From positions 1-46,510 of the IMG/VR virus record IMGVR_UViG_3300032286_000750: a DNA stretch of 46,510 bases; one strand, written 5' to 3'. Position 1 is the first letter of the stretch. Each line of letters opens with the position of its first letter. The notes below the pieces were generated by a model. It was given only the letters and a program-made list of their open reading frames with translations, was not told the origin of the DNA and ran no database searches. This document shows, piece after piece, positions 4,494 through 45,908 of the stretch. Both the position numbers and the translations under genes were made by a program. The DNA comes from a virus.

Positions 4494-4505
4494 TGGTCAC
4501 ACCTC

Positions 4506-20100: not shown

Positions 20101-23100
20101 GAAGTCTACTGGCATCTTGCTTATAAGCATCAGACACGTCTTTTCTGTCTTTAGCAGACATATCCACTCGAGCAAGCCCTATAGCCATTTCTTGAATAAG
20201 GTCTTCTCCCACAGAAGAGTTACCGACCAACATATCTGCAGGATCAAAGACAAAGTATGGGTGACTATTTACAGGAAAGTTTTCTGGAGACAGTGATGAG
20301 TCCGCCCAGTTCTGACCTAGTTTAGTAGCATTTGGGTGATCCTCTACGTTAAATGATCTACGCAAAACTCTAGTCGGAACATGAGAGATACCATTTCTAT
20401 GAGCGGCCTCTACTCTGTGGTTCCCATCCCAAAGATAGCCAAAGCCAGTTTGAGGATCAAAAACAACAACGGCGGGGTGAGTTATTCCACGCTTAGACGA
20501 TATGTCATCAAGTTTCTCTTTTAGCTTTTCTTCATTGTCAGCTGGGTTTCCTGCCATACTTCTAAGCTTATTTGTAGATACATATCCAACCAAGGAGTTG
20601 TTAGGTCCTAGCCCAGCACCACGTCTAGATCTAGCATCAACAAGCTTAGGATTTAGATTACGTCCATACTCTCTACCAACGTTATACGCATCACTTTCAG
20701 AGCGAGAATCTCTCTTTCTACCTTCAGGTTCTACTAAAGATTTTCCTGTATTTGATCCAGAAAGCATGTCTAATACAAGAACCGTATTAAATGCATTTTC
20801 TAAAACTTCGCCATTTTCATCTTTACGTTTAGTTCTATTTACATTAGCTACTCTAAAAGATGAACCTCTATCTAGCAGAATTTTTCCATCCGAGCTAGTT
20901 ATTGCTCTAGAACCTTTAGGAGCTCTAACAATGAGCATAAATCCTTCTTCAGATTCTTCATTACTAGCTTTGCCAGGACCTAAGGTTTCATATGCTGAAA
21001 CTGGAGAATTAGTGGCTGAAATATATCTATCATTTATTGAAACTACATCCCCACGGTTTTTGTTGGAGAATAACCCATGAAGATCAGATCCCTTTAGAGC
21101 ATGAGCACCGCTATAGATATACGTTGCCCTAGGAAGTCTACTTTCTTCTTTGTTAAACGCTGATATTAGACTACTCTCTACAAACTCGGAGTTCAAGCCG
21201 TTGTAGTGAGCTTGTACAGCAGAGAGCTCGTCTGCAGTATATCTTCCATCATATGATGGTCTAATATCCATCTGAGGAAGTAGTCTGTAGTCTTGAACTG
21301 TCAGCGGAACTTGGTGACGTGGCCAAAGTACAGTACCATCCTCTAGTTCTTTTATGGCTGGTTCAGCTTTTGGAGCAGCTCCAGTAATATAATATCTATC
21401 CATAAATCTAGAAAGCACAATGTGGTTATTTGGATTTTTATCCACAGAGTGAGCCCATGCCTCCATGCTTAAAGTAGGATTAGTTGAATGAACTATTTTC
21501 TTTTTGTTATTCATTCTTGCAAAAGCTAGTAATGCTGTGGCTAATCCCTGCCCCTGATCTTCTGGCTTAGTTTCTACGCCATGAATCTCCAAAGAGTCAG
21601 TATCGTAGTATCCAATAGTCATAGTACTTGAACTAGACTCTAGAAGCTTTCTTAGAGTAGCATTTTCTCCAAAAAACTCATCTTTATTCTGGTTAGGCTT
21701 TGATGCAATAACCATAACCTTTTCTTTAGAGTCTTCAGGGTCAGTAAGATCGACGGTTCTAACGTATGCAAGGTGGTAGGTATCGCCATTATCAGCCTTA
21801 TACCTTCCCATCGCAATCTGGTTACCAAACTTAGTAGATGTGTCTGAGTTTCCGCCAGGGATAAATGGCTTGTTGCTACTCCAAGTAGTGTATGTGCTAG
21901 GAGATATTTCCTGAGAAATATTATCTTTAATAGTCTCAACGTTGAATCTAGGCTCCCTGCTAGCATAGGCAAAGAAGAATGAATCGTAAGCTTCTTTCAA
22001 ATTCAACATCGCAACATGCATATTGTGCGTATTTGCTGGAGTAGGGTTTTGACTATTTATGTTGATATAGTCAAGTGTCATTTTGTACATTGCTTGAACA
22101 AGAGAGTTGTCCATTGGATTTAGCTTACTTCCATAAGGAGTAAGTCCACGCTCATAGAATGGAGTTCTCTCATGGAACTCATTCTCTACATTGTTTTTAG
22201 TCTTCTTTACAACTTTTTTAGGGAAGTTAGGTCTACTATTGGCCATCTCCTGCTCTTGTATTGCACTAGCAAAGACTTTATTTTTTTCAGCTACCGGAGG
22301 CAATCCCCTGACAGATATATCCTCTAGCTTAGAGGTTAAAAAGTCTATAAACTTGGATATGTCTCTATTAGAAGATATACCTTTGTCATACTGAATAGCT
22401 AGATAAGCGGCTTTAATGAACTCAGCAAGTGCCTCTCCATCGGATGCGGCTGCATATCTAGAAATGGGATGATCATTCTCATTTCCAACAAGATGACCGA
22501 ACAGGGAAACAAACTCGTTGTATTCAGGTCCATGGCTATCCTTTCCATCTTTATATTGTCCTAAGAGTAGCTGAGCTATGCCATGGCCATATTCATGAAT
22601 AGTTGCATCCATTAGACCATCTAGTGGCTTAGACCCGTATTTGACTCCATTATCTTCACCAAGCGGTGCGTCATGCATGTTTGGATTTATAACCATGGTG
22701 AATGAAGAGTCGCCTAAAGCGCTGTAACCACTAAGCACAGTTGGCTGTACTCTAATATATTTACTATTAGGGCCGAAAGTATTAGACGGAGCTAGAATTA
22801 TATTGATTTTTTGTTGATGAGTACCAAACACATCATTAAGTTTTTTAATCTCGCCAACTATGTTTTTAAGAGCCTTCGGATCAACTTCACCATCTATCCA
22901 ACGAATATGGGAGTATGTGCCACTAACTTGAAGCATTCTGTATCGCTTACTACTTCTAGAGTTTTTCTTAGCGTTTTTGACTAAAAGATTAAACCAGTGT
23001 TTTGATTTTTCAGTTTCTTCATAGCCCATGTCCTTTATGTATTTTTCGTACGCTTTTTGATACGCTTCTGGAGCGTTCACGTCTGGGATCAAATCGCCTG

Positions 23101-26100
23101 GAGTTTGATAGATTGTACCGTCATTTCCGTATAACTCGGCTTCAACGAATGCTTTTCTATCTCCAGTAATCTCTGTCGCACCTTCAATTTCTAATCCGTT
23201 AACCTCCGAGATAGCCGGAGATTCGTAAGCTGGGGATTCTACTACTTCAGATTCTTTTTCTTTCTTTTCTTTATTTTCTTTTTTACGCTGATTTACAGCC
23301 TCTGTTTTTGATTGATTATTTAAGATGTCAACTAAATCTTTTAAGGTTAAGATTCTATTCTTAGCTTTATTTTCTTTTTTAGCTTCTTTAGCCATTTCTT
23401 TTGTAATACGATTTGCCCAACGCTTACTGCCTTTTTTAATTCTTCTTTCGTTCTCCAAATCATATGCGAAAGGGTATTTATTGTATGCATTATTTAATAC
23501 TTCAATGGCTCTAGATACCAGGTCTTTTCTTTTTTCTGGATCTAGTTTATTTAGGGCATCAGCAAATCTCATGCGTTCTGCATAGCTTATGTTTACTCTA
23601 TTTGAAGCATCCTCAAATTGCTTCCACATTTCATCTGAAATTTCTCTAGAATCTTCAAATCCTTCAAATCCTTCAACCCTAGGAGGAGACCACCCACCCT
23701 CTTCAAACTCAGACATCAGCATATCTCCGAGCAAAAGAGCATCCGAGTAGTCTTTTAGCAGTGCTCTCTCTTCGTCGGTAAATCCAGACAAGTCAAGTTT
23801 TATTGGACGACTTTGAGCCCTAGGTTTAGCTTCTTTTTTAGGCTTAGCTTTTTCAGTTTTGGGAGGTGTAGCTGGTTTCTTGTCCCCTCGATCTTCTTCA
23901 GGCTTAACTGGAGTAGGGCCACCCTCAAAAGCAGCTGGAGTTAGAACAGGGGTGTTATTGTCAGCTAACTCTTTATATGCGTAGCCACCAATAGGATTTT
24001 CAACTTGAATGTCCATTTGCTGAATTAGTCTATCTATTCCATCATCAGCCTGTACCCAGTCGACACGTCCCAGCTCGATATCTAAAATTTGCTGCCATTG
24101 GTTGTTATAGAAGATGTAATCTCCAGCCTTAAGGTCCCCAACTTTAACCATTTTTGCATAGCCATCTTCAACAAGTTTATCTACACCCTCAGAGTCTCTA
24201 TGAGCATCTATTTTTTGAATATGATCTAAAACTTTTGGCTTTTCAACGGCAGGTTTTTCTTCTTCTTTTTCTTCGCTCTGCGGTTTCTCTGTCTCTTGCT
24301 GCTCGCTCTGCGGTTTCTCTGTGGTACCAGCAGGTTCGGCTGCAGGCTTTTCTGCAGGCTTTTCTTCTGTAGGCTTGGCTTCTGGTTTGGCTTCTTCTTT
24401 TTTAATGTAGACAGCATTAGACATTTTTTGCTTAAGCCAGTTAGCCGTAGAGCCATCTTCGCGTTCGGTAATTATGTCTCTATACCCAGGCATCTTAACT
24501 TGGATATCTTCTTCTGAATAAGTAGGCTTACCGTCTACTATTTTCTCTACTTTTTTCTTTTGAGTATTATAGGAGTCAGATATCTTTACTACTTTAGCAG
24601 TTTTACCTGTCTTAAGGTCATATAAAACATCGCCTACCTGAAGCTCGCCGATATCTTTTTTACTTACACCTTTAGGAAGCTCTTCCGTTTCTGGAGCCTC
24701 GGTGGCCTCCGGCTTGGGTGTAGTAGTGTTTGAGACTGGTTCAGATTTAGGTTCAGGAGTTATTTTTTCTTTTTTCAATACATCGCGTAAAGCCCTATGA
24801 GCAGGACTGACGATCCGATCTTTTTTTGAAAGACCATTCAAAGCTTCATAAAGTAGTTTTTTAGCTTTTTCTGTATCTCCATCTTCAGCTGCAAGTATCC
24901 CGCGCTGAGTTAGTATATAAGTATCTTTACTGTCTTCATGCTTAGCTAGTAGATCCCTAACTTCATCTTTTTTACCTTTATCCAGAAGCAGTGCAGTTAG
25001 TTTTTTTACTGACTGGATATCCCCAACATGAGCCCTATCTTCTAAATCTTTTCTAAGTGCTTTAGCATCTTCAGCATCTTTAGCGGCTTTTTCAGCTGCT
25101 TTTTCAGCTTCGGTTTGTTTAGATATTTTTGAATCGGGGTTTTTAGAATACTCATCTACTACATTACTAATACCTGAATAAAAATCACTATAGTCCTTGC
25201 CACTCGGTTTAGGAAATTTAGTTTCCCAATCTTCTTGATATTTTTTAAGTTTATTTAGTAAGCCACCAAAATTAGAGATTTTAGTAGCAATATCATTAAG
25301 GTTGCTTCTTGCCCTGTCATCAGATTCTGATTCCTGCGAACCGTCTTTAGATCCTTTAAAGGTACTAGAGTTATAAGCTGCACCGTATAGCCACTTATAA
25401 AGATTAGCTTTTTCTTCTTCTTGAGTAGGTTTTTCTTCTGCAGGCTTTTCTTCTGGCTCATCAATAACAACTGCTTTAATATCAACAAGGCCTTTTGTAT
25501 CAAGCTGCTCTCTAATTTGTTTAATGTAGTCGGCAGCTTCGCCTCTTGTGGCCTTTTCTAGGGGAGTTAGAATATCTTCAATGGTTTTTTCATCAGTGAT
25601 TTTGTACTTGTTTCGAAGCATATCTGCAAAACCATCTTTAGCATCTATAGACTTTTGTCTACGAGTTGCAGGAGCATCTGAACTAGTGTACTTTAGGAAC
25701 TTTTCAAGATTTTCTCTATAACGTTCGTCAATTTTTGCAAAATCAAAAGCGGTCACACCAAAGCGTCCGCCCTTAGGTACGGAATCCGGTTTCTCTGCTG
25801 CATGACGAAGTAGACCGTCTAGAATTCTTAGAGTGTCTTCAGCATCTCCATCGGCTGTGTGCCAACCACTAGGTTTAAGACCTAGGAAAGACAGAACGTC
25901 GGGGAGTTTGGCACTACTTACTCTGTTGGTAGGGTCATTAGGATCTTTTGATTCATCATTAACTCTGCTAGGTCCCTCTAGAACACCCTTTCCAGCGTCA
26001 TAGGTCTTAGTGATGTAACGAGCAAGATCCATGGTGTCGATTGCACCAGCAAAACTGAGCTTAACCTTGTCTTCTTCAGATTTGTTTGCATTGATTCTAT

Positions 26101-29100
26101 TGATCATGTCATGTAGCAATGGTAAATCGTATTGAATATTGTGAGCTGCAAGAATAGGGTTGCCACTTAAAATCTCTAGGATTTTAGGAAGAAGCTCTTC
26201 TTCGGTCGGTTGAGTCGCCAACCACTCATCAGTTAGTGGGGTAGTCCCAGTGACTTTTCCATCTTTACCGTAAACAGGTCTGACTAGGTTGGTTTTTGAC
26301 CACTCAGAGAGAGTAGCTCCATCGGACGGACGAATAAAGAAACTGTGTCGTTCTTCAGTTCCATCTGGGTTGTGAACTATAAAGCCCCACTGAACAACTC
26401 GATTTATTTGACCATCCCCATCAAAAGCATTGAATCCCGTTGTTTCAGAGTCAGCAGATACAACTTTAGAGTCTCCTAAAAATATTCTGATTTTATCAAA
26501 GTCGCCTTCCAGCGAGGTAATCATATTTCTAAGTGCTTCTCCAGAGAATGGGCCTGGAGATGGGGTATAAATAGTTTTAGGTCTTCCCTTATTATCCAGT
26601 TCAGTTGGGTGGTAAGCGTCTCCAGTAGTTCTGGTGAAAGTTAGACCGGCTGCGCCAGAAATATCTGTTGATGGGGCTTTAGCAACCATGCCGTTGTTTG
26701 AGACAGGTTTGGCTTTTTCTTTCTCTTCTTCTTCTTTTACGGGCTCCTGAGGCGTATTGGCCTTCATGCTTTTTAGCATGTCATCGGCTGCTTTTCTCAA
26801 AGCATCTTTAGCTTTAGGATTAAACTTTTCGTTAATCTGGGTAGAACGCTTATCTAGAAGTGTAAATACTCCACCATCTAAAGCAGATTTAGTTAGCTGG
26901 TGAATATCTGTACCTGAACCGTTTAAGGATTGATAGACTTCTACCATTCTTGCATAATCTACATATGCTTTAACATAAATATCAGTTAGACTTTTTATTT
27001 TACTTTCATCAGTCTCATTTTTAATTAAATCTTCTAGGTCGCCCATGGCTTTATTCCAAGCCAATCTGTACTGAACGCCACCGTCTCCAAATAGTTTTTT
27101 GTAAATATTCTTTAGTTCATCGTCCTGATTAAATTGAATAGTGGTGGTGCCATCCTTGGGGTCCACTGTTTCTTCTTTAGTAAGATGCTCTGACGGAATA
27201 AAGCCTTCCGGGATTCTTATGTCTGGTAGAGCATCTACAATTTCTTTAGCTTTAGCTACAGAGTCTTTAGCTTCCGGCTCTTCAGTGCTAGTAGACGGAA
27301 CAACTTGATCAGGTTGAGAGATTAGATTATTGTAAGGGAATCGCTGTTGGCCCTCGGAATCTAACGGATGGAAGTCTCCATTGGTAGTACCTCTATTTAT
27401 GTAATCAGCGTATAAACCTCGTACTTTACCGAGTTCAGTCACAAGTTGACTGTTTTTAGGAGTGACTCCACCCTCTGACACCCTAGATATTTCGTCAGTA
27501 AGATTTAAATAGTGGCCATAGTCGGGAGATTTTTTCTCAAGCTCAGCACGAATTTTTGCAGCTTCTTCTAGTTTACCCTCTTTGACTAGCTTATTGTGCT
27601 GTACAAAAATATTTCTAGCCTCTTCCCAGGCGGCCTTGTTTATTTCCTGCTGAGTAGGTCCTTCCGGTTTAGCCTCTTCAGGTTGCTTTTGAACTGCCGG
27701 GGCTTCCGTTTCCGGGGTGGAGACGGCCTCCGGTTCCCCGTCTTTTTCGCCTTCACTCTGCGCAGAAATGATGTCTTTAATACCATTTAAAAGTCTATTA
27801 CGCTCCGCATCTCTTTCTTCATCGTTAGGTGCAAATGGAGTGATAGTTAGCTGAGTAACGTAATCATTGAACTTAAGTTGGCTATTGCCTTTTCTAATAT
27901 GCTCTTTAACTAGTTTTCTAAAGTCATCATTATCAAAATTACCGTCAATAACGATATCGCCATTTTCTTCAATCTTGTATGTAAATCCAGGACCTAGTTC
28001 TACTTTATCCTTGCTGTCTTCTTTTGTTTTTATACCTTGATTATTAAAGTAAGAAGATAGGGCTTCTACCACCGCTAATCTGACTTCATCTGGCGAGACA
28101 TTAGTCTTTTTTGTATTTACTTCAATAACAACGCTATTTGCATCCCAGTCAGGATTTCTGTTAGCCTTTCTATATTTTCCAATACCGGATCTGTACTTTT
28201 TTAAATCATCAGCTGCCTTAGAGTCTCCAGCTGTAGCTTTACCAGCAAGTACATTCTCATCTTGCTTAGATTTTAAAATCCAAAGTTTTACTTCTGCATC
28301 TGAAGGATCTACAGCCGATCTAGCTACGTTTCCCCATGTGCTCATATTAGGCATAAAACCAGTTAAAGCTATATCTCCGCTAGGTAGGATCTCGTAGTTT
28401 GCTCTATTACCTAATTTACCCTTAGCCCCGACTTCAGCATTTACAGCAACTGTAGTATCTTCATCCCCCTGTAGAGCCTCAGGAACTTCAGAGTACTTGT
28501 TTACAAACCCCGAGTACAGCCTACTTAAAAACTCGGCTCTATCTTCTGGAGTATCTCTCTCTTCTCCTTGACGTACCCAACCCATTTCACGGTAAACTTC
28601 ACCGGTTGATTTTACAACCTTTGGATTACCATCTTCATCTAAAACATCCCTGTAGCTATCGTTCCAACTAAACTGAGCCCCTTGTATCTTTTCTTTAGAC
28701 CCACCGTTCCACCATTTGCCCTTTCTAAGAGCTTTAAAGATTTCATAGTCACGATCTTTTTTGGATAGAACTTTTATGAAAATATTTCCATCTTCATCTA
28801 TGTCGTATTTAAGAGATGAGCCCAAATATCCAGATGTATTTTTTTCTCCAGATATCCCTGTGCCAGAGTCTTTTTTAGCTTTTCTGGCTAGTTCATAAGC
28901 TATGGCACTATCTCTTACTTGGCCATCATTCTTTGGAAAACGTACGCCATCTAGAGGTAGGTTGTTTGCCATAAGGTGTAGAACTTCAGCCTCGTCGGCT
29001 TCGTTGACTAACTTACCTACCTCAGTAGAGGACGCAGTTGGCAGAGTAGCTAAAATCTCTTTAGCTCGGTTGTCTTGGAAAATACCCATCTTGATGCGTC

Positions 29101-30859
29101 TAAGAACGCTATCAAGTTGCTTTTGAGTAGGCTTACCTTCAGTGCGTTCGCTTACTATACTTTCAGGAAGTACAATAGGACCTTCAGGAATGATTATTGT
29201 AGGCTTTTGTGCCGCAGCTCCCCTAGGTTTTTTAGGTTTTTCATACTTTTTACCTTTAAGTATCATGTCTTTAGGTAGTTTATCTAAACTTTCTTGGGCA
29301 ATATCTTGAGGTCTACTGCCAATAACATGATAGGATTTTGGATCTCCATTAGGACTAAATTCTGCAAGAACTTTTCCATCAGATGTCTGTACACCTATTT
29401 GACTACCTTCTCTACCTGTTTTAGGGTCTGTGATTACCCTAATTCCAAGGAAAATCCCAAGTTCTCTATCTGGATCTTTTTTGTCAACAATGATGTCACC
29501 ATAAGTTAACTCGGTTGCATACTTTTGTTTGAATTTTTTACCAGCGGAGTTGGTTCTTCGAACCCCACCTTTTTCAGGAGCTTTTTCTTCAGTTTTTGAC
29601 TCTTTTACTTCTTTTGCCTGAGGGTTGGTTGGAATACGACCAGCAAATACAGACTCGTACTCACCTGCATCCATTGCATCGGCTAGTTCATCGGCGGTTA
29701 TCTTATCTGCAGTGGCTTTTGATTCAGGATCGTATACGCCTTTTTCAATAAAACCTTTGGAGTTAACGTGGAACTGCTGTACACCAGTAGCGCCCTTTTT
29801 CTTTAGATAGATTTCGTCGCCAACACTTAGTTTGCGGGCATCATCCGAGGTTAAAAGTTTTGGCTGTGCTGGTGTCCCCTTTACTGGCTTGGCACTTGGT
29901 TTTTGTCCACCAGGCTCTTCACCCATACCTCGAGAGATTTGTATTTTATCTCCAGCATTATACAAACTTGATGTTATTTTGTTTGTTTCAGGGTCAGTGT
30001 AATAAACATCTAGTTCTCGTCCAGACTGCTTTATTTTTGTTACAAGAACTTTTTCACCATAACGATTTGTAAAAACATCGCCTGGTTGTAGATCTCTAGC
30101 TCTTCCTTCAAATCTACCCTTTTCAGGACCGCCTGCCATTTCCTGCTCAGGTCTTTCCTTTGCAGGAGCTTTCCAAATTCTAACAAGAGCATCTTTAGGG
30201 GCAGGAGTTGTTGTTGAAATTCTATTCCCCTGCCAACGAACTGTTGCAGAAACCTTATCGTTATCAGGGGTGACATTTATTACTGAACCGTATGTTTTGG
30301 TGCTATTGTCGTAAACAATATCATCAACATCCAAATCCCCGTGAGTGCCCCCCTCCATCTCACCTCGTTTAGCCGCCTCTTCTGCTAAGTTACCGAGTGG
30401 CTCTAACTTAGAGGCTCCCATTAGGAGGTCAGTCTCAGTTATTGGATCCACTCTAGTGTTAGCTAGATCAATCACCTCATCCGCATCAGGGGTTAGGTGA
30501 CTAACGTCGTATCCAAGAGCAGCAATATCCTGATCGCTAATCATTGCTTGGATAGGGACAATCTTGCTAGAGTCGATGTGGTAGATTCCGTCAGGGATAC
30601 CTTTAACACCTCTAACTAGAAAACGTCCATAATCTTTGCCCAAAGACGATGGGCCAATATATGTACCAGAAGCTCCAATAATATTTCCATTATTGTCGTT
30701 GAAAGCCAAGTGATTTGAGCTTCCCATGTCAATCCACCAGCCCTTGTGGCCCTTGGCCTTAGAGCGGAGCTGATACTTAGCCCACCACCCCCAAGGTTGA
30801 CCATGCAACCCAGCTGCTGCTAGCAGTGGGTTAAACTCTGGTTGCTGGTTATTTTCCAT
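17186..30859 (-). CDS. Giant polyvalent protein 2: exonuclease, zincin, GNAT, ART-like, ParB-like, Pif1 helicase
   Basis: The product has 4557 residues. Order of parts: 1-240, an N-terminal region with GIPDGIYHID, like one in the other giant protein; about 255-530, several short SH3/KOW-like modules of the form LxxGDxI; long Lys/Glu/Pro linkers; 1465-1685, a DEDDh exonuclease (D1470 and E1472 in ADSETTG, AAHNIQYDLPLLHDM, HTADGDAEDTLRILDG); more SH3-like modules near 2030 and 2235; 2580-2860, a zincin with H2755-E-Y-G-H2759 and a possible third ligand E2809 or E2813; about 3000-3140, a GNAT (EDQGQGLATALL); 3190-3345, an ADP-ribosyltransferase-like region with degenerate motifs; 3410-3510, a ParB-like domain (LWDGNHRVEAAHR); 4020-4557, a Pif1-like SF1 helicase (K4044 in GKGGVGKS, LLLDEVSM, GDPFQLPPV, VHKVQGKSLDAA, LYVALSR). 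The ATG lies 8 bases after the preceding stop without a good ribosome site, so translation is probably coupled. Confidence 0.85.
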   Translation of the reverse strand: MENNQQPEFNPLLAAAGLHGQPWGWWAKYQLRSKAKGHKGWWIDMGSSNHLAFNDNNGNIIGASGTYIGPSSLGKDYGRFLVRGVKGIPDGIYHIDSSKIVPIQAMISDQDIAALGYDVSHLTPDADEVIDLANTRVDPITETDLLMGASKLEPLGNLAEEAAKRGEMEGGTHGDLDVDDIVYDNSTKTYGSVINVTPDNDKVSATVRWQGNRISTTTPAPKDALVRIWKAPAKERPEQEMAGGPEKGRFEGRARDLQPGDVFTNRYGEKVLVTKIKQSGRELDVYYTDPETNKITSSLYNAGDKIQISRGMGEEPGGQKPSAKPVKGTPAQPKLLTSDDARKLSVGDEIYLKKKGATGVQQFHVNSKGFIEKGVYDPESKATADKITADELADAMDAGEYESVFAGRIPTNPQAKEVKESKTEEKAPEKGGVRRTNSAGKKFKQKYATELTYGDIIVDKKDPDRELGIFLGIRVITDPKTGREGSQIGVQTSDGKVLAEFSPNGDPKSYHVIGSRPQDIAQESLDKLPKDMILKGKKYEKPKKPRGAAAQKPTIIIPEGPIVLPESIVSERTEGKPTQKQLDSVLRRIKMGIFQDNRAKEILATLPTASSTEVGKLVNEADEAEVLHLMANNLPLDGVRFPKNDGQVRDSAIAYELARKAKKDSGTGISGEKNTSGYLGSSLKYDIDEDGNIFIKVLSKKDRDYEIFKALRKGKWWNGGSKEKIQGAQFSWNDSYRDVLDEDGNPKVVKSTGEVYREMGWVRQGEERDTPEDRAEFLSRLYSGFVNKYSEVPEALQGDEDTTVAVNAEVGAKGKLGNRANYEILPSGDIALTGFMPNMSTWGNVARSAVDPSDAEVKLWILKSKQDENVLAGKATAGDSKAADDLKKYRSGIGKYRKANRNPDWDANSVVIEVNTKKTNVSPDEVRLAVVEALSSYFNNQGIKTKEDSKDKVELGPGFTYKIEENGDIVIDGNFDNDDFRKLVKEHIRKGNSQLKFNDYVTQLTITPFAPNDEERDAERNRLLNGIKDIISAQSEGEKDGEPEAVSTPETEAPAVQKQPEEAKPEGPTQQEINKAAWEEARNIFVQHNKLVKEGKLEEAAKIRAELEKKSPDYGHYLNLTDEISRVSEGGVTPKNSQLVTELGKVRGLYADYINRGTTNGDFHPLDSEGQQRFPYNNLISQPDQVVPSTSTEEPEAKDSVAKAKEIVDALPDIRIPEGFIPSEHLTKEETVDPKDGTTTIQFNQDDELKNIYKKLFGDGGVQYRLAWNKAMGDLEDLIKNETDESKIKSLTDIYVKAYVDYARMVEVYQSLNGSGTDIHQLTKSALDGGVFTLLDKRSTQINEKFNPKAKDALRKAADDMLKSMKANTPQEPVKEEEEKEKAKPVSNNGMVAKAPSTDISGAAGLTFTRTTGDAYHPTELDNKGRPKTIYTPSPGPFSGEALRNMITSLEGDFDKIRIFLGDSKVVSADSETTGFNAFDGDGQINRVVQWGFIVHNPDGTEERHSFFIRPSDGATLSEWSKTNLVRPVYGKDGKVTGTTPLTDEWLATQPTEEELLPKILEILSGNPILAAHNIQYDLPLLHDMINRINANKSEEDKVKLSFAGAIDTMDLARYITKTYDAGKGVLEGPSRVNDESKDPNDPTNRVSSAKLPDVLSFLGLKPSGWHTADGDAEDTLRILDGLLRHAAEKPDSVPKGGRFGVTAFDFAKIDERYRENLEKFLKYTSSDAPATRRQKSIDAKDGFADMLRNKYKITDEKTIEDILTPLEKATRGEAADYIKQIREQLDTKGLVDIKAVVIDEPEEKPAEEKPTQEEEKANLYKWLYGAAYNSSTFKGSKDGSQESESDDRARSNLNDIATKISNFGGLLNKLKKYQEDWETKFPKPSGKDYSDFYSGISNVVDEYSKNPDSKISKQTEAEKAAEKAAKDAEDAKALRKDLEDRAHVGDIQSVKKLTALLLDKGKKDEVRDLLAKHEDSKDTYILTQRGILAAEDGDTEKAKKLLYEALNGLSKKDRIVSPAHRALRDVLKKEKITPEPKSEPVSNTTTPKPEATEAPETEELPKGVSKKDIGELQVGDVLYDLKTGKTAKVVKISDSYNTQKKKVEKIVDGKPTYSEEDIQVKMPGYRDIITEREDGSTANWLKQKMSNAVYIKKEEAKPEAKPTEEKPAEKPAAEPAGTTEKPQSEQQETEKPQSEEKEEEKPAVEKPKVLDHIQKIDAHRDSEGVDKLVEDGYAKMVKVGDLKAGDYIFYNNQWQQILDIELGRVDWVQADDGIDRLIQQMDIQVENPIGGYAYKELADNNTPVLTPAAFEGGPTPVKPEEDRGDKKPATPPKTEKAKPKKEAKPRAQSRPIKLDLSGFTDEERALLKDYSDALLLGDMLMSEFEEGGWSPPRVEGFEGFEDSREISDEMWKQFEDASNRVNISYAERMRFADALNKLDPEKRKDLVSRAIEVLNNAYNKYPFAYDLENERRIKKGSKRWANRITKEMAKEAKKENKAKNRILTLKDLVDILNNQSKTEAVNQRKKENKEKKEKESEVVESPAYESPAISEVNGLEIEGATEITGDRKAFVEAELYGNDGTIYQTPGDLIPDVNAPEAYQKAYEKYIKDMGYEETEKSKHWFNLLVKNAKKNSRSSKRYRMLQVSGTYSHIRWIDGEVDPKALKNIVGEIKKLNDVFGTHQQKINIILAPSNTFGPNSKYIRVQPTVLSGYSALGDSSFTMVINPNMHDAPLGEDNGVKYGSKPLDGLMDATIHEYGHGIAQLLLGQYKDGKDSHGPEYNEFVSLFGHLVGNENDHPISRYAAASDGEALAEFIKAAYLAIQYDKGISSNRDISKFIDFLTSKLEDISVRGLPPVAEKNKVFASAIQEQEMANSRPNFPKKVVKKTKNNVENEFHERTPFYERGLTPYGSKLNPMDNSLVQAMYKMTLDYININSQNPTPANTHNMHVAMLNLKEAYDSFFFAYASREPRFNVETIKDNISQEISPSTYTTWSSNKPFIPGGNSDTSTKFGNQIAMGRYKADNGDTYHLAYVRTVDLTDPEDSKEKVMVIASKPNQNKDEFFGENATLRKLLESSSSTMTIGYYDTDSLEIHGVETKPEDQGQGLATALLAFARMNNKKKIVHSTNPTLSMEAWAHSVDKNPNNHIVLSRFMDRYYITGAAPKAEPAIKELEDGTVLWPRHQVPLTVQDYRLLPQMDIRPSYDGRYTADELSAVQAHYNGLNSEFVESSLISAFNKEESRLPRATYIYSGAHALKGSDLHGLFSNKNRGDVVSINDRYISATNSPVSAYETLGPGKASNEESEEGFMLIVRAPKGSRAITSSDGKILLDRGSSFRVANVNRTKRKDENGEVLENAFNTVLVLDMLSGSNTGKSLVEPEGRKRDSRSESDAYNVGREYGRNLNPKLVDARSRRGAGLGPNNSLVGYVSTNKLRSMAGNPADNEEKLKEKLDDISSKRGITHPAVVVFDPQTGFGYLWDGNHRVEAAHRNGISHVPTRVLRRSFNVEDHPNATKLGQNWADSSLSPENFPVNSHPYFVFDPADMLVGNSSVGEDLIQEMAIGLARVDMSAKDRKDVSDAYKQDASRLPSPFNPGTYVQNKANGRIGQIIGFETDGDGKYTGKLQVRYLDGIVDALDNYPKEEIDYDSNGERVRIHGISDETGSYNDRRAYTEKLHAIGDLEPVTGSFVTSGGGSIYLSDTMYGVISGEGIYGRVNRFISPGVIEIAQLTGVDKYGIKQYKMHTIKSSQFLPIQDRRETLDPDKNSPVHERNMAMDTETYAQILEVIASLRSYGYIPEDIENAIFNSIHNRFVTYTGGLEILSFLKNFDRYRRSLIQDIIRKNSNKGATKQKKYAPERPVEETTTTPAVTKNAFAVSNIDEFRSFANKDNLLNGMPLISSQHPTDPAGDSLMANIQGILYELDVVKDSEANSIISKLPNMSQKEAEKLHKKLQTALLNKRIANDQPIDGLTIPEGYNTSKLTGYAPTSKLPEDASESEMSKVLDAAMKEAIQITSGPDGAEKRDLVEYILNNPEVMAIIGKGGVGKSVLLNLLRARLTMAGIPYAVISPTGVAATPVGGVTIHSLFGFDTGPQMTNLLDVDGLGKLDRYSASGYIGAKLKDLQYLLLDEVSMVRPDLIDGMDRALRIAKGINKPFGGVALIMFGDPFQLPPVGIKELNDPELKIEDTDSPKVRERKRLELAQATEFREKYVDNWFFSADAFSKEPVPVVELTTVYRQKNGPYVDALNAVREGEVTESDLDLINGRRMVDRKNLKKGAPTIALTNAAVDLINKERSAQVEGATHKLKATIPEDLELTRDEENNLFAEKTIEVKIGDLVMLVKNDNGDQRDKAGISDNYNRWSNGTMGRLKGVHYANEEDRKKNDPDYITVSLVDSDGEDLLDSKGNAIVHKVYRDSEEKKGLDLTDVFDENSRSIKKRLKMLSQGKYEQFPIRLGYALTVHKVQGKSLDAAIIDFMDPERVNPKDKNSDYKIDPLTGEPIRREREPWDAGQLYVALSRLRSLEGLFLTRKISLDDVKVDPAVRNWIDKVRTVAELQNKAK
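20183..20197 (-). other. Weak candidate cleavage motif IQEMA in giant protein 2
   Basis: The residues are DLIQE-MAIGLA, with M3558. It lies between the ParB-like region and the KOW/helicase part. The lack of E before Q and the helical context make it weaker than the EQEM sites. Confidence 0.3.
22241..22255 (-). other. Candidate cleavage motif EQEMA in giant protein 2
   Basis: The residues are AIQEQE-MANSRP, with M2872. It lies directly after the zincin domain and before a new region that leads to the GNAT. Confidence 0.5.
30134..30148 (-). other. Candidate cleavage motif EQEMA in giant protein 2
   Basis: The residues are KERPEQE-MAGGPE, with M241. It separates the N-terminal region from the first SH3-like modules. 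Confidence 0.5.
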
Positions 30860-30867
30860 ATGAGGTA

Positions 30868-31185
30868 TTAGTTATCTTCTGAATAGAGTTCTTTATATTT
30901 TTCTGGGTTGCGATCAGCCCAATCACAGAACCAATCATATGCTTTTTTCTGATCTTCAATAGGGCTAAATAGATCTATTTTTAGATCTGCGCCAGTCCTC
31001 TCTCTGTGCTCTAATCTAGCCCCATCAGCCCTGAGCGTTTCGTAGAAATGAATCAGCTCTTCATCGCTGCATTCTTTCCAATTAATAGGACCTACAGATT
31101 CGGTGCCGTCAGCATATTCAAAATGCACAATCGGGTCGGAGCTTGGAACTTCATTATCTTCCATTAGATACCCAAGCCTTTGCAA
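30868..31185 (-). CDS. Small acidic protein between the two giant genes
   Basis: I do not recognise this protein. With a TTG start at 31185 it has 105 residues. An ATG at 31164 (MEDNEVPSSD) would give 98. Neither has a strong ribosome site. It contains HFEYADGTESVGPINWKECS and two helices (DEELIHFYETLRADGARL, KKAYDWFCDWADRNPEKY), so a small beta-plus-helix protein is likely. It is not membrane-bound. It sits in the only break between the two giant genes, behind its own possible promoter at 31244-31252. It may be an assembly factor, inhibitor or partner of one of them. That role is inferred from position only. Confidence 0.6.
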   Translation of the reverse strand: MQRLGYLMEDNEVPSSDPIVHFEYADGTESVGPINWKECSDEELIHFYETLRADGARLEHRERTGADLKIDLFSPIEDQKKAYDWFCDWADRNPEKYKELYSEDN

Positions 31186-31243
31186 GTAAATTTCATCAAT
31201 GTCCTAAGTCGCTAGTCGGTTATACCCGATATTTTACCTTTAT

Positions 31244-31252
31244 AGTATACCA
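31244..31252 (-). promoter_or_regulatory. Extended -10 promoter before the small gene and giant gene 2
   Basis: The minus strand reads TGGTATACT, a TG one base before a good -10 box, in the 99-base gap after giant gene 1. No clear -35 box was seen. Transcription would start near 31237. Confidence 0.45.
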
Positions 31253-31284
31253 ACTTATCGCTTAATCGATGAAATATTTGAAAA

Positions 31285-34200
31285 TTATCCTTCAGATTGT
31301 TGCATTTTCTTAGCCATGTCGACCAACTGTTGGTACATAGATAGCTGTTGAGTGAGTTTAGATCTCTCTTGATCCCTAAAAGCTTCTTTAGTTTCAGCAA
31401 ATAGTGGGTCAAATGGGTCTAGCTTTTTGACGTTGGCAGGGAGATACTTTCCTTCTTGAAGAGATTGAAGTAGATCCTCGTAGTGAGCAACCATTTCCGT
31501 TGCCTTAGAGGTGATCTTCTGAGACATCTCCTGCTCAGGAATTTCTTTAGGTTCTTCCGGACTTTCTTCAGCAAATTTCTTATTAAACTCTTGAATAGAT
31601 GCTTTAAGTTCCGCCATAGACTTATCCATGTAGAATCTCAGTGGGCCTGGATCAAGCTTAAACTTAGCTCTACTTAAGCCTACATAGTGTAGGTTACGTT
31701 CTTCGAAGGCTCTCCAGTCTCTAGACGCATCTTCATCGTTAGAGTCTGAATTGTCACCACTATCAGAGGTACCCCACTTATCATTCCAAATCATAACATT
31801 ATCGGATTCTAGACCCTTTGAGGTGTGGGCTGTATAGGCTTTAAAGGCCCCATCCCTACCAGACAAAGATTCAACCAGATTGTCAAGAATCTTTTTAATG
31901 TTCTTTTTACCCACAGCGAGTTCCCATTCAAAAGCCGTCTGAGGACCAAACTTCTCATCAATTATAGGGTTACCATTTTCATCAAGCGATGGTCTTTGAG
32001 TTCTAGCAAATCCGTTATCTTCAGCTGCCATCCTCTGTCTCCATAGTCCCCATGCAACAGACTCTCTAGGAGACCTTTGCCCGTTGCTGAAAAGAATCAA
32101 GTTACCGTCCTCTACGCGGTAGGAGATACCTCCACCTAGATTACCCTTTTTTCCTATTTCCTTAGGGACAGAGAAGTTATCATTAATAACTCTAGCTCTA
32201 CTGAGTAATTTTGTTAAGTGCTCGTAGGCTTCACTGATTTTATCGTAGTCGTGGTTTATCATTACACTAAGTACCGCATTCCTAACCATCGTAACTCGGT
32301 GTGGAAGCGTGCCAGCTTCGGCTGACTTTTTAATTTGATCCATAGTCACAAAGCCCTTTAAAAGTGGAGACCTATCTTTTTGAGCAAGAGGTTCTTGTAT
32401 ACCGGTAACCTTGTCAGGGTTATTGAATCGATACTCTTGGTACGAGAACCAACTTAGATGCTTTAGAATCTGCAGTGCATCCATCTTTAAAGCTTCACTG
32501 ATGATTGCAGGCTTATCGTCATATCTAGGAGATAGAAAATCTATAGCCTCTAGAACACCAGCGTTAGTTCTAGGGATCACCATCAGATTTGGTTCTCCAA
32601 TCAGTTCTCCATCGTCAACGACTTCAGATTCTTTGGTTGGGTCCGGCTTAAGTCTGTCTGACCCTCCACCGGCTTCCAAAACATTATTTGTAATGTTAAC
32701 AATTGGCTCACCGCTTCTGTAGCTTTGCGTCAAACCTAGGTCTATGTCCGTTGGGACAAACTCTAGGGCATCTTCAGAGCCACGGAACTGGTAGATAGCT
32801 TGATTCTGGTCACCAACGGAGACTATTTGAATTCCATTGCGGTGAAGATCATACTGATCGATAATAAGCTTCCTAAAGGCCGGGTTAATGTCCTGAGCCT
32901 CATCTAGAAGTAGACCGTCTGGGATACGCTCTAGCCCATGTATGCTTCTTCCCCTATCATCTACAGCGGTTAAATCTGGGTTAGTTAGAGCCCAGTGCTT
33001 AAACATGTGGTTAAAATCTACAAGAATTTGTCTAGACTCTAAATCTAATGGGGATACTATGTCTGCCCACAAAGTCTGAACATATTCAATAAGCTTTGGA
33101 TTTGTTGGAAGCTTTCCATCATTCTCCAACTTATATCTTCTAAAGTGTTTGAAGTCGACTTCTTCATCGGCAGACTGCACCCAGTTTGTCAAAGCATCGA
33201 CTACCACAGCAACTGTAGATATTCTAGACTGTCTCTCCTCTGGATTAGAGCCGATACCCAAGAAATCAGCAACAAGTTCTGGAATTGCTAGGTTTATTGG
33301 AGCGTTTCTAGCAGTATCTTGAATTTCATACAAAAATTGTTGCTTTTCTCTGAGTGGGAAGTTTATGTCTGTGTTGAATGATACCGAGTCGCTAGTTCTA
33401 GACTCGGTATTTCCAATCTTAGAAAATACTTCCTGAGCGTGTAGCTGGTTTTCTTTATTGAATACTACGTATAGAAGACCCATGTGTGGCTTCAAAATAG
33501 AAACCATCTGAGCAATCATTTCCATAGAAGTGGTTTTACCACTACCGGCTAGAGCCTTGATTCTAATGTTAAGCCCTTGCATAAAAGCTTTGAGGATTCT
33601 TTCACCCTCTGTATTAGGAGCGAATCTTAGTCCTAACTTGTCAAAAGCAATTTTTATTTTATCCATTTCTTTAGGATCTACAGAACCCACCGTTTTCTTT
33701 GGTCCCATATCCGACATTTCTTGGATAATCTCTACCCTAGGAGATCTTCTAGCCTTAGGTAGACTGTCTTTTCTGTCTTCATTAGCTTGAACCTTATAGT
33801 GTTGGTCCTTAGCTTTCACTAGTCTACTTATAAGAGATTTAGCTGAATCCGCAGAATAGAAGTGGTTAGTAGCGGCACTCTGGTAAGCGTTGGAAAGAAC
33901 TCTATCAATAAGGCCAAGTTTCTCTAGGTCACTAGCGTTGTTGATGATTCTATTCTCTTGCTGCTTTGATGCTGGGGACAATCCACCATTAGAAACTACT
34001 GAAGCAGACTGAGGATCTACAATAAGTTTTCTATCTTTGTTTGAGACAATAATCTTATCGATATCGAATAATGATGAAACTTGCCAAGTTCCTTCTTCAT
34101 TAGGTATAGTGACACCCATGCCGATATCAAGCAAAATGCCATTTCTAGACATAAAACGTTCTGTGGCTGCAGCTATGGTGTCTGGGTAGACAGCTTCCAA

Positions 34201-37200
34201 AACAGTTTTTCCTGTGACTAGGAAATCCGCTGCAGGATACTCTACTAGAACCTTGTCTCCAGCAGTTGAACCGTAAGATTTTCCAACTCTGCGGTTCTTT
34301 ACGTTGACAACATAAGTTCCCGCTGGAACGTCAGCCAAAACTGCAGGGGCTGGAAGGTCAGTGTTATCAACTATATCCGGACCTTGAATAGAGTTCTTAA
34401 TTGACTCGGCAGCCCCTAGAAGGAAATCTAACGCATTGGAGCTAGAGTCCCCTATGTCTCCAGCAAATAAGGCAACCTGAGAAGTCCTGAATGCTAGGTA
34501 ATCAAGCAACGCTTCGTGGTATTCGTCGAGGGCCTTGTTATAGTCTTCTTCACTGTAGTTGTTAGATGCTCCAATGAGACTAAACTTCTGCCCACTGGCA
34601 CTCTTGCCGGCCACTGCCCTATCTAGCATTTTATTCAAAACATCTAGAGTAGAGATAACGTCGGCATCGGCTTCGTGACGACCATTGTTTGAAAGACCAA
34701 AGTATGTAACCAAATCTTCCAAGCGATCAGATCTATACTGATTACCGTTAGGGAGTAGTTTAAATGGAGCATCTGGAGCTTCAATAGACCATCTAGGCAT
34801 TACATGAGCCGATAGGCCATAGGTATCTAGGTAGCCTTCAGGCTCTAGTTCAGGTAGGCCGGATTCTCTGAGAGATCTGTTAATAACTTCCATGTCAAAG
34901 TGAATGATATTGTGTCCAGCAAGCAGAGCTCCCTGAGGCACAAACTCTAGTAGCTTTTCTAAAGCTTCTCTTCTAGAAGGTTGTCTAGATAGGAATGCTC
35001 TAGTTACCTTTCCACCCATACCGTCTCCAACAGTCTTTAGAGTGTAAGGACTTAGTTCAGATTCCGGGTTAATATAGGTTTTATACATGTCAACTTGCTG
35101 TAGGTTTTTTACCTTAATGACTGCAATCTGAATAATATCATTTTTGATTGCAGGGTTTTCTATGTCAGGTAGCCCTGTGGTTTCTAGGTCGAAGATGTAG
35201 AACTCTTTATCAGACAAGAAGTTTTTTAGATCTTCCCAATCGGAAGAGCCATTCAATATCTCAAATACCGGTCCCCAAAGTGCTGGAGGCATAACTCTAC
35301 GCATGGAAGGTTTTTGACCAAATGAGGCCATTTCCTGTTCGAATCTCTCGAACCCTGTTTTATCTGCCGCTGGTCCAGTTTCTCCTGCGGTGTAGGTTCC
35401 TATAAGAGCTTTTACAGAGTCTCCAAGAACACTAACAATGTTAAACATGTCTTTGTTACTCTTAGGGAACTCACCGTACTTGTGGGCTGAACCAGAGTCA
35501 GTTAGTCCATCATGGATAAGCTTTAGTTCTCTATCTACGTCAGCTGCGGATGGTTTGTTTCTACCGCGCATCTTGCCTTGAAGAGCAGTCAGGTCTGAGA
35601 TAGCTCCCTTAATGAGTGGAAGAACTTTTGGATATATTTTAGTGTTCTTGTTATTTAGCGCAGCTCCTAAAAATGCTAATGCATAGACTAAGTTACCTCT
35701 AAATATTTTTGCATCAGCATTTCTAGCTGCTGCCTTAATAGCTGCAGTTCTAGCGTCAACTAGCTCCTCAGGTTCTTCTTTCTTTTTAGCCTTTTCTTTT
35801 TTAGGCTTAGCTTCAGTCGCAGGTTTGGCCTCAGTTGTAGGTTCCTCGGTTGTAGGTTCCTCAGTTGTAGGTTCCTGCTTGCCCTCTTCTTCTTCTTGAG
35901 CTGGCTTTTGTCCATCCTCTGGTTCTTGGGCTGGTTTTTGTTTATTATCGATTTCCTCTTCCTGAGCCGGCTTTTGTTTATTGTCCGCTTCTTGAGTCTG
36001 AGGTTTAGTTGTGGGCTCGGCTGATGAATCCGCTTCTAAGTTAGGGGTTAAGATGCTATCAATGTAGTTAATTAGGTTGTCTGAACTACTAGATAGTTCT
36101 GGGTGCTTTTTTGCAATAGCTGAGTTTAACCAAGAAACGTGAGATCTTAGAGACTCTAGAACTTTTTTGTAGTCTTCTGGATTGTAGTCACCAATAGGCA
36201 TACCAAAAAACTTATTTAAAGCTGGGATTAAGTTAGTCATGAATGGTGCCAGAATATCTTCATCTAAATCTTGGGTATACCAGAAAGGTAGTCTTTCTAG
36301 CAACTCACGCGCTGGAGCGCTCATTGTAACAATTTCTTCAAGCGCCTGAGTAATGCCGTCAGATTGAGCATCATCTCGATCTTCTTCATTTAGGTAGTGT
36401 TCTAAGAACCCCGGTGAGTGTGTAGGGGCAGCAGTTCCTGTACTAGATGATAATTCTGGTTTAGATGTAGGTTCAGCAGGTTCAGCTGGTTTAGCAGCAG
36501 GTTTACTGGTACCTGGAACAGTAGTCCTATTGGAAATAACTCGCTGAAGTTCTTCAGCACCATACTTTGTGTAAGTATCAGCAATATCTTGATCGTCTGG
36601 AAGATATATTGAACTTATCTCTGCATTGAAAGGAGCTAGAGTGGGAATAAGATTCTCTGCAGCGGTTCTACCCGCGTTGTCTGGGTCGTAAGCAAGTACA
36701 ATCTCTCTTATGCTGTCTAGTCCAACCGCGTCCTGAATAGCCTTTACGTGGTCATCACTAAAAGCAATACCGGAAGAAGAAACTACGTTATCATACCCAG
36801 CTTTACGCAAAGCCATGGCGTTAGTAGCACTTTCAACAACAATAAGTTGTCCCGTCTTTTTAATCGACTCTTTGGCTAAATCTAAGTTGTATATAACCTT
36901 GGCTTTTCCATAAATCTCTGAGTTTTTTGGATTCATGAACTTATTGTTTTGGTCGGTTACGTCTTCTGGAAGAGCTCTACCATTAAAACCTAGAGGAACT
37001 CCGTCAACATCTTTAATAGGCCAAACGATACGGCCTTGGAACATGTCGTAGCCACCTGAAGTCATAAGACCGACTTCTTTTAGCTCGTCTTCGGTGTAGC
37101 CCTTTTCTTTAAGGTAGTTGCCTACAAAGTTCTTTGACTTAGGAACAAGACCCATCTTGTAGTGCTTCATGTCTTCTACACTAAAGCCTCTACTCTCCAT

Positions 37201-40200
37201 ATACTCCTGAGCCCTCTTAGCCTCTTTAGTATTTTTATTGAATAGTAGGCCATAGAATAGGTTAGCGGCTTCTTTTACGGCACCCTTCAAACGTTCTGGG
37301 TCAAACTTAGGAGTTACTTCTTTCTTTTCTGCAGCCTGTTTCTTTTGAGGCTGAGCCTTGGAAGGTTCTTCTGAAGTAAGTTTATTAGCCTGCTTAGCGT
37401 CGCGCTCTTCTTTAATCTGCTCTGGAGTTTTATCTGGGTATTTAGCAAACTGAGATGCAATAAGCTTCCATTTAGATCCAGGAAGTTGCCTGTGGTTCTC
37501 CATGAAATCATTTAAAACATCTTCAGGAATATTTTTAGTTCTAATAAGATTTGAAACCTGAGCTATAACAGTTGAACTAGGTCCAAAATCAGTTAAGTCA
37601 GTTCCAAGGGCTTCTTCAACTTCTAGATTTACCCCGTCTTCGTCTCTAGTAGTGTACTTTTTTACCGGCTTTATGCCAGGGTATTTCTCAGTCAGATACT
37701 GTACGGCATTTTCAATACCCTGTTTAGTCATACGAGCAATTTTTTTATTACTGTATCTAGCTAAATCTTCTGGAGATATATCTATATCGGTAAATCCATC
37801 TTGATTCTTTAAAAAATCACGTAGGTAGTTTCTCTGAACGTCGCTTGGGTATTCTGACCTAGGTACACGGGCCCAGACGGAGGAACCATCAGTTTTGTCG
37901 GGAAAAGTATTAGCACTCTTTAAAGCACCAGAAACTCCGTCATGAATCCAGTCAAACTTTGCTGGGTTGGCAATAACAGAATCTAAGAATGCTAATAAAT
38001 CCTCGCCCTCTCGGCCAAAGTCTCTAGTGTATGTAGCTGTTTTTAGCCAACCAAGCGCTTGAGTAGATATTACGTTCTTAACATTTCGAGAACCTTCAAC
38101 ACCCTCTACAGCTTTGTTACGTCCAGCATCCCTAGATAATCCTTTAGCAGTATTTATCTCAAGAAGCAGGGCGGATAGGTCTTTAAAATTTAGATTCCTA
38201 TATCTGTCTCTAAACTCTTCCTTTTGCTCGTCAGAGAGTGTAGTTTCTCCATTATCTAGATCGATGGCACGTCTAACCTTTTCACGCTCTTCGGCCATAG
38301 CGTATGGGTATTGAGTGGTTGTTAGCGCTTCTTCGTATTTAGGAGTTGCCTTAATGCTCTCGAGTAGGGCCTGAGCCTGAGCATAGGTATACTTTTCTGG
38401 ATTAGCTACAAAATCATCATAGGTGTCTACTAGCGCAGGATCTGGCATTGTATGGTGTCTAGCCGCTATGTATATAGGATAGAGAATACCGTTTAGTTTA
38501 GTAATTCTACCTAGGTGCTTTGTAGGTTTAGGTAGAAGCTCTGTTGCCTTAGCTCCGCCAATCTGCTTATCGTTTGGCTTAGCGTATTTATCTGCATCTG
38601 CAAGCGGAGGGGTAACGGTAACGGTTTGTGAGTTAGCAATTACAGGCTCACCGTCGTCGGCCGTGTTTGACTCTCTGGCATCTTCAATAGAGTCCCAATC
38701 AGAGCCAACCACAAGTCTGTTTTTCCTATTAGGGTCATCGCCTCTAAACAAAGCTAGAGTATTAGGGAAAACAGTGTTATCAAGCTCGTAACTAATGTCT
38801 CCAGTTTCTGGATCAATGACTGCTACAGCTTCTGATGCCAATAGATGGTCGCCAAAATAGGCTACATACTTTCCTTCTTGGAAGGAGTAGAAAGCAGGCT
38901 GACCTCTTTTGAAGTTGTTGATTAGTGCCCAACCCTCAGGCATGTTCTGGCTAGGATCCCAACCAGGCTCGCCATCTTCCGGGAATACTTCTTCAGCAAC
39001 TTCTTCAACTACGGGTTTTTCTGCTACTGGCTTTGCTACCTCAGCAGGCTTTTCTACCTTAGGTGCAGCTTTCTTAGCCTTAGTTGCTTCTGGAAGGTTA
39101 TATCCAATAATGTCAGCAACCTTGCGTACAGCACTAGGGAAAGAAACATTGTCAATCTTCTTAACAAACTCAAATACGTCTCCACCCGAGCCGTCAACAA
39201 AGCACTTAAAGATTCCCTTGTTGGTGTCAACGTTAAGCGAAGGTTTGCTATCCTCGTGGAATGGACAGATTCCTTTAAACTTACCCGCTCCAGCTGGCTT
39301 GAGATCTATGTACCTGCCGATAACGTCTGCTATGTCTGCTCTAGATCTAATAGCATTGACATCGTCGTCTGAAATCTTTCCTGCCATTTCCTGCTCTACA
39401 GGTTCTTTAGCAATTCTAGCTACAGGTTCATTCTCAACGCCAGGGTAGTTCTCATCTTCACCAGCGGCTAGCTGCTGAATAGATGCCCAGTCCTGAGCAT
39501 ATCCAACAACTTCATTCTGACCACGCTTGCTTGAAATAACCTCGTAAACGGCCTGTGAAGGGTCTAGAACGTCAGTTCCGGTATCCCCTACAATCTGAGC
39601 ACCAAACTTCTCTATAGCCTCTTCTACACGCTGTTTTAGGGCATCTGATTCGTTGCGATAAGCATTTACTTCATAGCCATCTGCAGAAACGTAGTGTCCG
39701 GAAGCTTTTTCAGAAGTAAGGCCGGAAACTTTACCGGAAATTTTAGTTGGAGACCAGTTGTCCGGGAGCGCCTTAGGAATCATATTTGCAATGTCAACAA
39801 ATGGAACATCCGAACGTTGCTGAACCTTTGCAATCTTGGAAGCAGTGTGTTCTGGAAGAACAGCTTCAATCATTTCTGTTGTATTTGCTGGAACGGTGTA
39901 GATACCATTCTTAAATCCAGTGATGTCCTTGATTTCGATGTCAATACCGTTAGCATCTCTGCTGTTTCCAGCAACCTTACCAACAACAGAGACAATCTGG
40001 CCATTACGCTTTTTTGCATAGAAGCGGACCCCGCCACCCATGTAAGCGAAACGGCCGTAGCGGTCGCGTCTTTGGGCTCTAGCTCTAGCTGCACGATAAA
40101 CACTAGCGTTCTTACCAGCGTATGGGTCACCGAACGCAAGGAGCGGGAGTAGGTGGATATCTGCAGGAAGATCTTCTAGGGAAATCATCTGCATACGAGT

Positions 40201-44997: not shown

Positions 44998-45277
44998 TAG
45001 TTTGGGGCAAAGTTTACGTACTTTATTTAAAAAAGATACCTTAAGTTTTTTTGGATTTGGCCTGCGAGAAGGCTACACACGTTTTTCGAGCTGCTCCAAA
45101 TCGTTTCCAGAATTGATTACAAAACACGCTTTACAAACCTAAATAAGTCAAGAATTAAAAAGCATTGTAAATACCAATTAAGCATCACCAAGTAAATAAA
45201 AATAATCTAAAAATACAATTTTCACTTATCTAGTTCCAACAAATTAATAAATTGCCTATCGGCTTAGCCCATTGGCT
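44998..45277. other. AT-rich intergenic region
   Basis: No gene is seen in these 280 bases. They are AT-rich with runs of A and T. One GC-richer patch at about 45058-45110 and the stretch GGCTTAGCC near 45260 stand out; a related GGCTAAGCC occurs at about 46337. I see no convincing tRNA or rho-independent terminator. Confidence 0.5.
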
Positions 45278-45867: not shown

Positions 45868-45908
45868 TATAAATAGCCTCTAATTTGATAACAAAAAAGT
45901 TATAAAAC

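Follow-up and report, generated by a model that had tools for sequence, protein, structure and literature searches.

IMG/VR virus record IMGVR_UViG_3300032286_000750 was analyzed over its whole length of 46,510 bases (the window), which encodes two giant proteins, P1 and P2, with a short motif, QEM[AS], repeated between their enzyme domains. The genes lie on the minus strand and form part of a head operon like those of actinophages, in the order portal, Dps/ferritin fusion, P1, P2, P3 and major capsid protein, followed by tail genes; window coordinates written with two dots below refer to the minus strand. P1, an open reading frame (ORF) of 3123 residues (31285..40656), is flanked by portal/Dps and P2, an ORF of 4557 residues (17186..30859). 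P3 (12266..17110) is a prohead protease fusion of 1614 residues, and the major capsid protein (10040..12127) has a long N-terminal region. The N-terminus of P1 has a relative in the giant protein of phage DSL-LC01, and homologues of P2 (4.0–6.85 thousand residues) fill the same slot in relatives, from which alone the host can be suggested.

Domains were named after Pfam and PHROG profile matches, on which the functional names rest. P1 contains a DnaG CHC2 zinc finger (residues 429–523, 39088..39372; PF01807), the DnaG catalytic core (DNAG_N) with Toprim (1142–1350, 36607..37233; PF08275, PF13662), a DEDD exonuclease (1821–2006, 34639..35196; PF00929) and a UvrD-type helicase (2343–3016, 31609..33630; phrog_1967, PF00580, PF13361). 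P2 holds a second exonuclease (1464–1708), a zincin module (~2540–2871, 22247..23242) with the sequence HEYGH near residue 2755 and the invariant alignment positions E270 and E274, a ParB-like domain (3427–3528) and a Pif1/Dda-like helicase (4022–4548, 17216..18796; phrog_325, PF05970). The chains thus carry several enzyme domains each, and the primase, exonuclease and helicase that an earlier sequence-only reading of the window had placed beside the motifs were recovered in the profile searches; the zincin of that reading is the HEYGH module.

In a six-frame scan of the window, QEM was found seven times and only in the two long frames, at M424, M1776, M2314 and M3044 of P1 and at M241, M2872 and M3558 of P2. 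The next residue is A or S in all seven copies, and the preceding one is E (five copies) or I (two), exactly as the sequence-only reading had counted. Shuffling of the protein sequence within 60-residue blocks gave an expectation of 0.0065 for [EI]QEM[AS], against seven observed, and at least seven were reached in 0 of 2000 shuffles. The copies recur between domains and not within them, as 0/7 lie inside a detected Pfam or PHROG domain. In P1, EQEMA (421–425, 39382..39396) stands five residues upstream of the DnaG zinc finger envelope, EQEMA (1773–1777, 35326..35340) precedes the DEDD exonuclease, and IQEMS (2311–2315, 33712..33726) and EQEMS (3041–3045, 31522..31536) lie upstream and downstream of the UvrD-type helicase, respectively. 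In P2, EQEMA (238–242, 30134..30148) lies behind the N-terminal module described below, EQEMA (2869–2873, 22241..22255) immediately behind the zincin, and IQEMA (3555–3559, 20183..20197) behind the ParB-like domain; this last site had been counted previously without being placed. An eighth, degenerate copy, ESEMS (~3994–3998, 18866..18880), precedes the Pif1 helicase and was added here from a by-eye alignment to VEESS of contig L007 (position 2638).

Two of the copies in P1 enclose the DnaG primase cassette (window 36607-39372), whose start, MAGKIS, resembles a native DnaG start. In none of ten relatives does this cassette align at its place in P1. Its placement and native-looking start suggest that motif-bounded cassettes are shuffled.

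Relatives were collected by scanning viral contigs twice with alignments of P3, which gave 154 loci; they are metagenomic contigs, in part incomplete. With the C-terminus of P1 as a single query protein no viral contig was matched, and a helicase alignment returned mostly generic helicases; in the alignment of the window zincin no stretch was conserved well enough to serve as a query. P3 is 41–50% identical to its homologues in Actinomycetia phage DSL-LC01 and Microbacterium phages Pumpernickel, Zooman, A3Wally, Cece and Big4. As in the window, the slot between portal and protease/capsid genes holds a giant protein in the fetched DSL-LC01 and Microbacterium relatives and in Arthrobacter phage Mimi (two large proteins in Zooman). 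The giants of relatives reach 6850 residues and contain GNAT domains as well as MPTase-PolyVal and ArdcN, two hallmarks of polyvalent proteins; in a Pfam search PF18818 was found in relatives and not in the window. An N-terminal module, QxRDRxGR[FW]xxMGxxV, is shared by the giants of relatives and window, with a variant form in the P3 homologues, and is a plausible candidate for virion association or targeting. It lies at window ~39838-40077, at the N-terminus of P2 and in L002-L006.

QEM[AS] was absent from the giant proteins of all 154 loci. A per-protein search for dispersed short patterns revealed that each close relative carries a motif of its own in its giants: VEE[MSFL][AS] (G005/G016, ~10 copies), [IL]D[KR]M[AS] (G004, ~15 copies), PSQNRE (G002/G003/G014 and others; 11 exact copies in G002), GPSPK[EQ]E (G009/G010/G011; 16/16 copies in G009 identical, GPSPKEE), GFxQx[PA]G (G001/G015, G008 and G007; 25 copies in the 4801-residue protein of G001), NIAPDAEG (L021, 7 or 8 copies) and MGMALP (L140/L143, 2 or 3 copies). 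Over whole contigs these motifs are essentially limited to the giants, matches to GFxQ elsewhere being isolated. No dispersed motif beyond low-complexity linkers was found in the giants of DSL-LC01 and of the Microbacterium and Arthrobacter phages; in the latter two groups APE-type linkers alone recur. Codons differ between the window copies at every synonymous position and are scrambled in the motifs of relatives as well, including serine TCN versus AGC; it is therefore the protein sequence, and not a DNA repeat, that is kept, in agreement with the sequence-only reading.

Alignment of orthologous sites showed that the flanks are kept while the motif letters are exchanged. P1 site 2314 reads IQEMSD in the window, IEEMAA in G005, IDKMAA in G004, NPSQNRERPADTK in G002 (PSQNRE) and RPSPKEERPADRK in G009 (PSPKEE), so that one position bears PSQNRERPADTK versus PSPKEERPADRK, versus IQEMSD, IEEMAA and IDKMAA. 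Likewise, EQEMA at P2 site 2872 corresponds to IDRMA in L019 and VEESS in L007, and IQEMA at P2 site 3558 to IDKMA and VEEMA in the same two contigs. Such concerted change over many sites of a genome points to a trans-acting partner that recognizes all of them, and a different motif at the same junctions in each relative is the pattern expected if the sites co-evolve with an enzyme acting in trans. The idea of a processed polyprotein with a repeated interdomain motif thereby gains strong comparative support; cleavage itself is a prediction. The letters QEM[AS] are not conserved in homologues, whereas the sites between domains are; to take loss of the motif as a refutation would mislead, because sites and not letters are kept.

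A natural exchange in one phage, L023 (contig G009), bears on the identity of the partner. Its motif is of the PKEE type (GPSPKEE) on a backbone of the QNRE type: P1 and most of P2 are nearer to the QNRE phages than to the other PKEE phages, and this affinity reverses in the C-terminal stretch of P2, which comes after the final copy of the motif and contains an HExxH sequence. Over the 1500 residues before the last motif, L023 is 72–77% identical to QNRE phages and 34–36% to PKEE phages, compared with 35% and 44–47%, respectively, over the ~600 residues behind it. In a tree rooted with L021 and others the L023 C-terminus joins the PKEE phages (support 91/99), and an approximately unbiased (AU) test rejects its union with the QNRE phages (p 0.001); an unrooted tree of the domain was uninformative. 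Motif specificity thus co-segregates with one HExxH domain, in which an invariant HExxH is followed by E/H..YDR (predicted local distance difference test, pLDDT, of the model 68.7). The P1 metallopeptidase region of the same contig (2951-3250) follows the QNRE-like backbone, and its P2 zincin near residue 853 shows an ambiguous affinity. G009 also sides with the PKEE phages in two more genes, both rejected as partners: one lies behind the capsid gene and occurs as two alleles, which in other lineages are distributed without regard to the motif, and the other, of 123 residues, lies between P2 and P3, and several lineages lack it. The former (G009:43525, G001:60051 and other contigs) occurs as strongly diverged alleles that are exchanged among lineages independently of the rest.

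For the window lineage, the P2 zincin is the candidate processing protease, and it fits better than the prohead protease, both having been put forward by the sequence-only reading. Its AlphaFold model (pLDDT 70.5) indicates, with modest confidence, a gluzincin-like fold. Thermolysin-type zincins favour a hydrophobic residue behind the cut. A thermolysin-like preference, if we infer one here, would suit cuts between QE and M and between VEE and [MFL], and the scissile bond of the window motif is probably that between QE and M.

Several sister lineages have giants split by a predicted −1 frameshift, with the signal C CCA AAA, a stop codon 0–3 nucleotides on and then a stem-loop. It was found in nine contigs, with junctions at L116:4429, L158:7458, L021:4128, L022:7789, L024:2504, L098:7866, L102:6131, L131:6934 and L241:8252, those of L022 and L024 being similar in sequence. 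Among 844,783 codons of long ORFs there are 87 in-frame copies of C CCA AAA; 11 of them lie at most 6 nucleotides from the stop, against ~0.3 expected by arithmetic from these counts, although near-identical loci are included and these are not 11 independent cases. HExxH is present in 8/9 shifted extensions and 0/9 upstream parts, and in L116, L158 and L021 a motif copy follows at most about 15 residues behind the shift. By analogy, the arrangement is that of Gag/Gag-Pol.

The head proteins carry a second motif, [VILM]TA[SAG][AGVS], in the portal, Dps, P1 N-terminus, P3 and capsid protein of several lineages. Its core, [VILM]TA[SAG], is independent of the giant motif and probably marks prohead protease sites; the window has copies in the capsid protein (window 11291-11386) and at residues 52 and 107 of P1, and six of the full motif in P3, which lacks EQEM. 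Neither the capsid nor the portal or protease proteins contain EQEM, so that no site motif is common to capsid protein and giants, as would be the case for substrates of one prohead protease. The capsid stretch QAPVTAAAE...AITAGADIPG, where the cut site of the prohead protease would be expected, is nearly constant over all motif classes compared.

We consider it likely (probability about 0.7) that P1 and P2 are head-packaged polyvalent polyproteins cut at the interdomain motif by a phage zincin. Both chains would be packed into the phage head, and cutting at the repeated motif would release separate enzymes, among them the primase, exonucleases and helicases. The cutter would be a zinc metalloprotease borne in the same polyproteins, namely the HEYGH zincin of P2 in the window and, in the QNRE/PKEE phages, the HExxH domain at the C-terminus of P2, and co-evolution of protease and sites would give each lineage its own motif. 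The broader view, of a double-stranded DNA (dsDNA) actinophage clade with retrovirus-like logic, in which packed polyproteins, a lineage-private code and a co-evolving metalloprotease are combined, in some lineages, with frameshifting, strikes us as evenly balanced between right and wrong; on this view, the code may diversify fast so that the cargo of one phage is not processed by another infecting the same cell.

The main rival holds that the motif is a docking peptide, one per module, which ties the giant to a lineage-specific prohead partner in the manner of encapsulin cargo and is not cut. A short, repeated, lineage-specific motif in linkers would look alike under co-evolution with such a partner, and phages do use packaging signals, as reported for DarB of phage P1 (PMC9024508). 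We nevertheless judge docking improbable, since the conserved N-terminal module could already serve packaging, and cutting, unlike docking, requires a copy at nearly all domain junctions (as many as 25 copies). Moreover, what tracks the motif in the L023 exchange is a stretch with HExxH and no capsid protein, the gene after the capsid gene fails to track the motif, and the layout with a protease part reached by predicted frameshifting also speaks against docking. Cleavage of the giants at EQEM by the prohead protease of the 1614-residue protein, the cutter preferred by the sequence-only reading on the model of T4-like cutting after Glu, is much less probable again. The gene neighbourhood favours it, and prohead proteases cut internal proteins of other phages, some after Glu (SPN3US, consensus A-X-E; PMC10052503). 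Protease and capsid segment are, however, conserved among phages with EQEM, GFxQ, PKEE and QNRE motifs, the head proteins share the separate motif [VIL]TA[SA], which stays constant while the giant motif changes, and the G009 prohead protease is nearer to the QNRE phages despite the PKEE motif. The analogy with cutting after Glu also fails for lineages whose motifs lack Glu (GFxQxPG, IDKMA).

Slightly less credible still is cleavage by a host protease or another zincin, possibly only after injection into a new cell. Several zincins occur per genome, and ArdC and TraC1 polyvalent proteins are transferred at full length (PMC5512222), but a host protease explains neither why each lineage has a different motif nor why the motif segregates together with a phage domain. 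Recurring peptides, finally, could in principle stem from similar low-complexity linkers, from a DNA repeat spread by gene conversion or from translation that starts internally, the linkers being rich in E, P, A and K and APE-type linkers recurring in the Arthrobacter and Microbacterium giants. Such an artefact is refuted by the shuffles, by the codon differences between copies and by the orthologous positions, and internal starts, which the sequence-only reading had already thought less likely, are excluded by the lack of Met in the motifs of most lineages.

Several observations weigh against cleavage by a co-evolving zincin. The window lineage lacks the QNRE/PKEE-type C-terminal domain, so that different zincins are needed per clade, and further P2 zincins exist. 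The exchange in L023 is a single event outside the window's own lineage, and homologues of its HExxH domain also occur in giants in which no repeated motif was detected. A Foldseek search with the model of this domain gave no PDB match, and that with the window zincin gave a weak one, the best being the metalloprotease domain of lethal factor (E 7e-3, probability 0.96–0.99, template modelling score 0.32). For 16 sites to switch, many changes would have to be coordinated, and the intermediates are incompletely represented (GPSQKEE, L014). The motifs P[IV]VD (G013), [LF]MAF (G012) and S[AP][VI]D (L020) were assigned post hoc with weak statistics. A scan of the window for the frameshift signal found none.

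Two other features of the window lie near the head genes. At window 40657-41967, directly adjoining the portal gene, a Dps/ferritin-like domain is fused to a second domain, which perhaps gives protection to packaged DNA. Upstream of the head operon, window 45230-45883 is a long low-complexity repeat of the CA/CAG type that is open in several frames on both strands.

Neither candidate zincin (the window P2 zincin or the C-terminal HExxH domain) was found in a cultured phage, and a literature search with phage polyprotein phrasing returned no paper. If the cleavage reading is true, DNA phages possess a polyprotein strategy with a built-in protease, regulated by frameshifting in sister lineages, which would explain how a replication kit could be delivered as separate enzymes from one packaged chain. 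It would also provide naturally occurring pairs of protease and site that are orthogonal to each other and could serve as laboratory tools.

Among known systems, phage polyvalent proteins are the closest, being likewise very large multi-enzyme chains in a head-gene neighbourhood, with MPTase-PolyVal zincins and ArdcN present in the relatives found here and a zincin-like metallopeptidase, with HEYGH, in window P2. Zincin processing of such chains was proposed by Iyer et al. (2017; PMC5512222), and, if the cleavage reading is true, this proposal would become testable at predicted sites in ~10 lineages. In the portions of that paper at hand, Toprim primases are said never to occur in phage polyvalent proteins, unlike P1 with its DnaG/Toprim primase, and the giants described here extend to 6850 residues. 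The same portions do not name a repeated site motif, a lineage-specific code or a frameshift; relative to them, what is new is the code of the sites, its change in concert, the way it segregates with a protease-like domain, and the frameshift. DarB and DdrB of phage P1 are large proteins related to defence that are packaged in the head, either with a targeting signal at the N-terminus (DarB) or with processing that has been reported, and in the available parts of both sources a repeated interdomain site motif like the present one is not described for them (PMC9024508; PMC5512222). Prohead proteases (T4 gp21, SPN3US gp245, HK97 gp4) act similarly during maturation, cleaving proteins inside the head at a short consensus; here, unlike in those systems, capsid protein and giants seem to be under two motifs, of which only that of the giants varies by lineage. 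Retroviral Gag/Gag-Pol and other viral polyproteins share with the giants several proteins per chain and, on the reading proposed here, a protease encoded in the chain and co-evolution of site and protease; a predicted −1 frameshift would precede the putative protease part in the sister lineages, as in Gag-Pol. Unlike retroviruses, these are dsDNA phages with a putative metalloprotease in place of an aspartic, cysteine or serine protease and a near-uniform motif per genome, with cleavage predicted from sequence.

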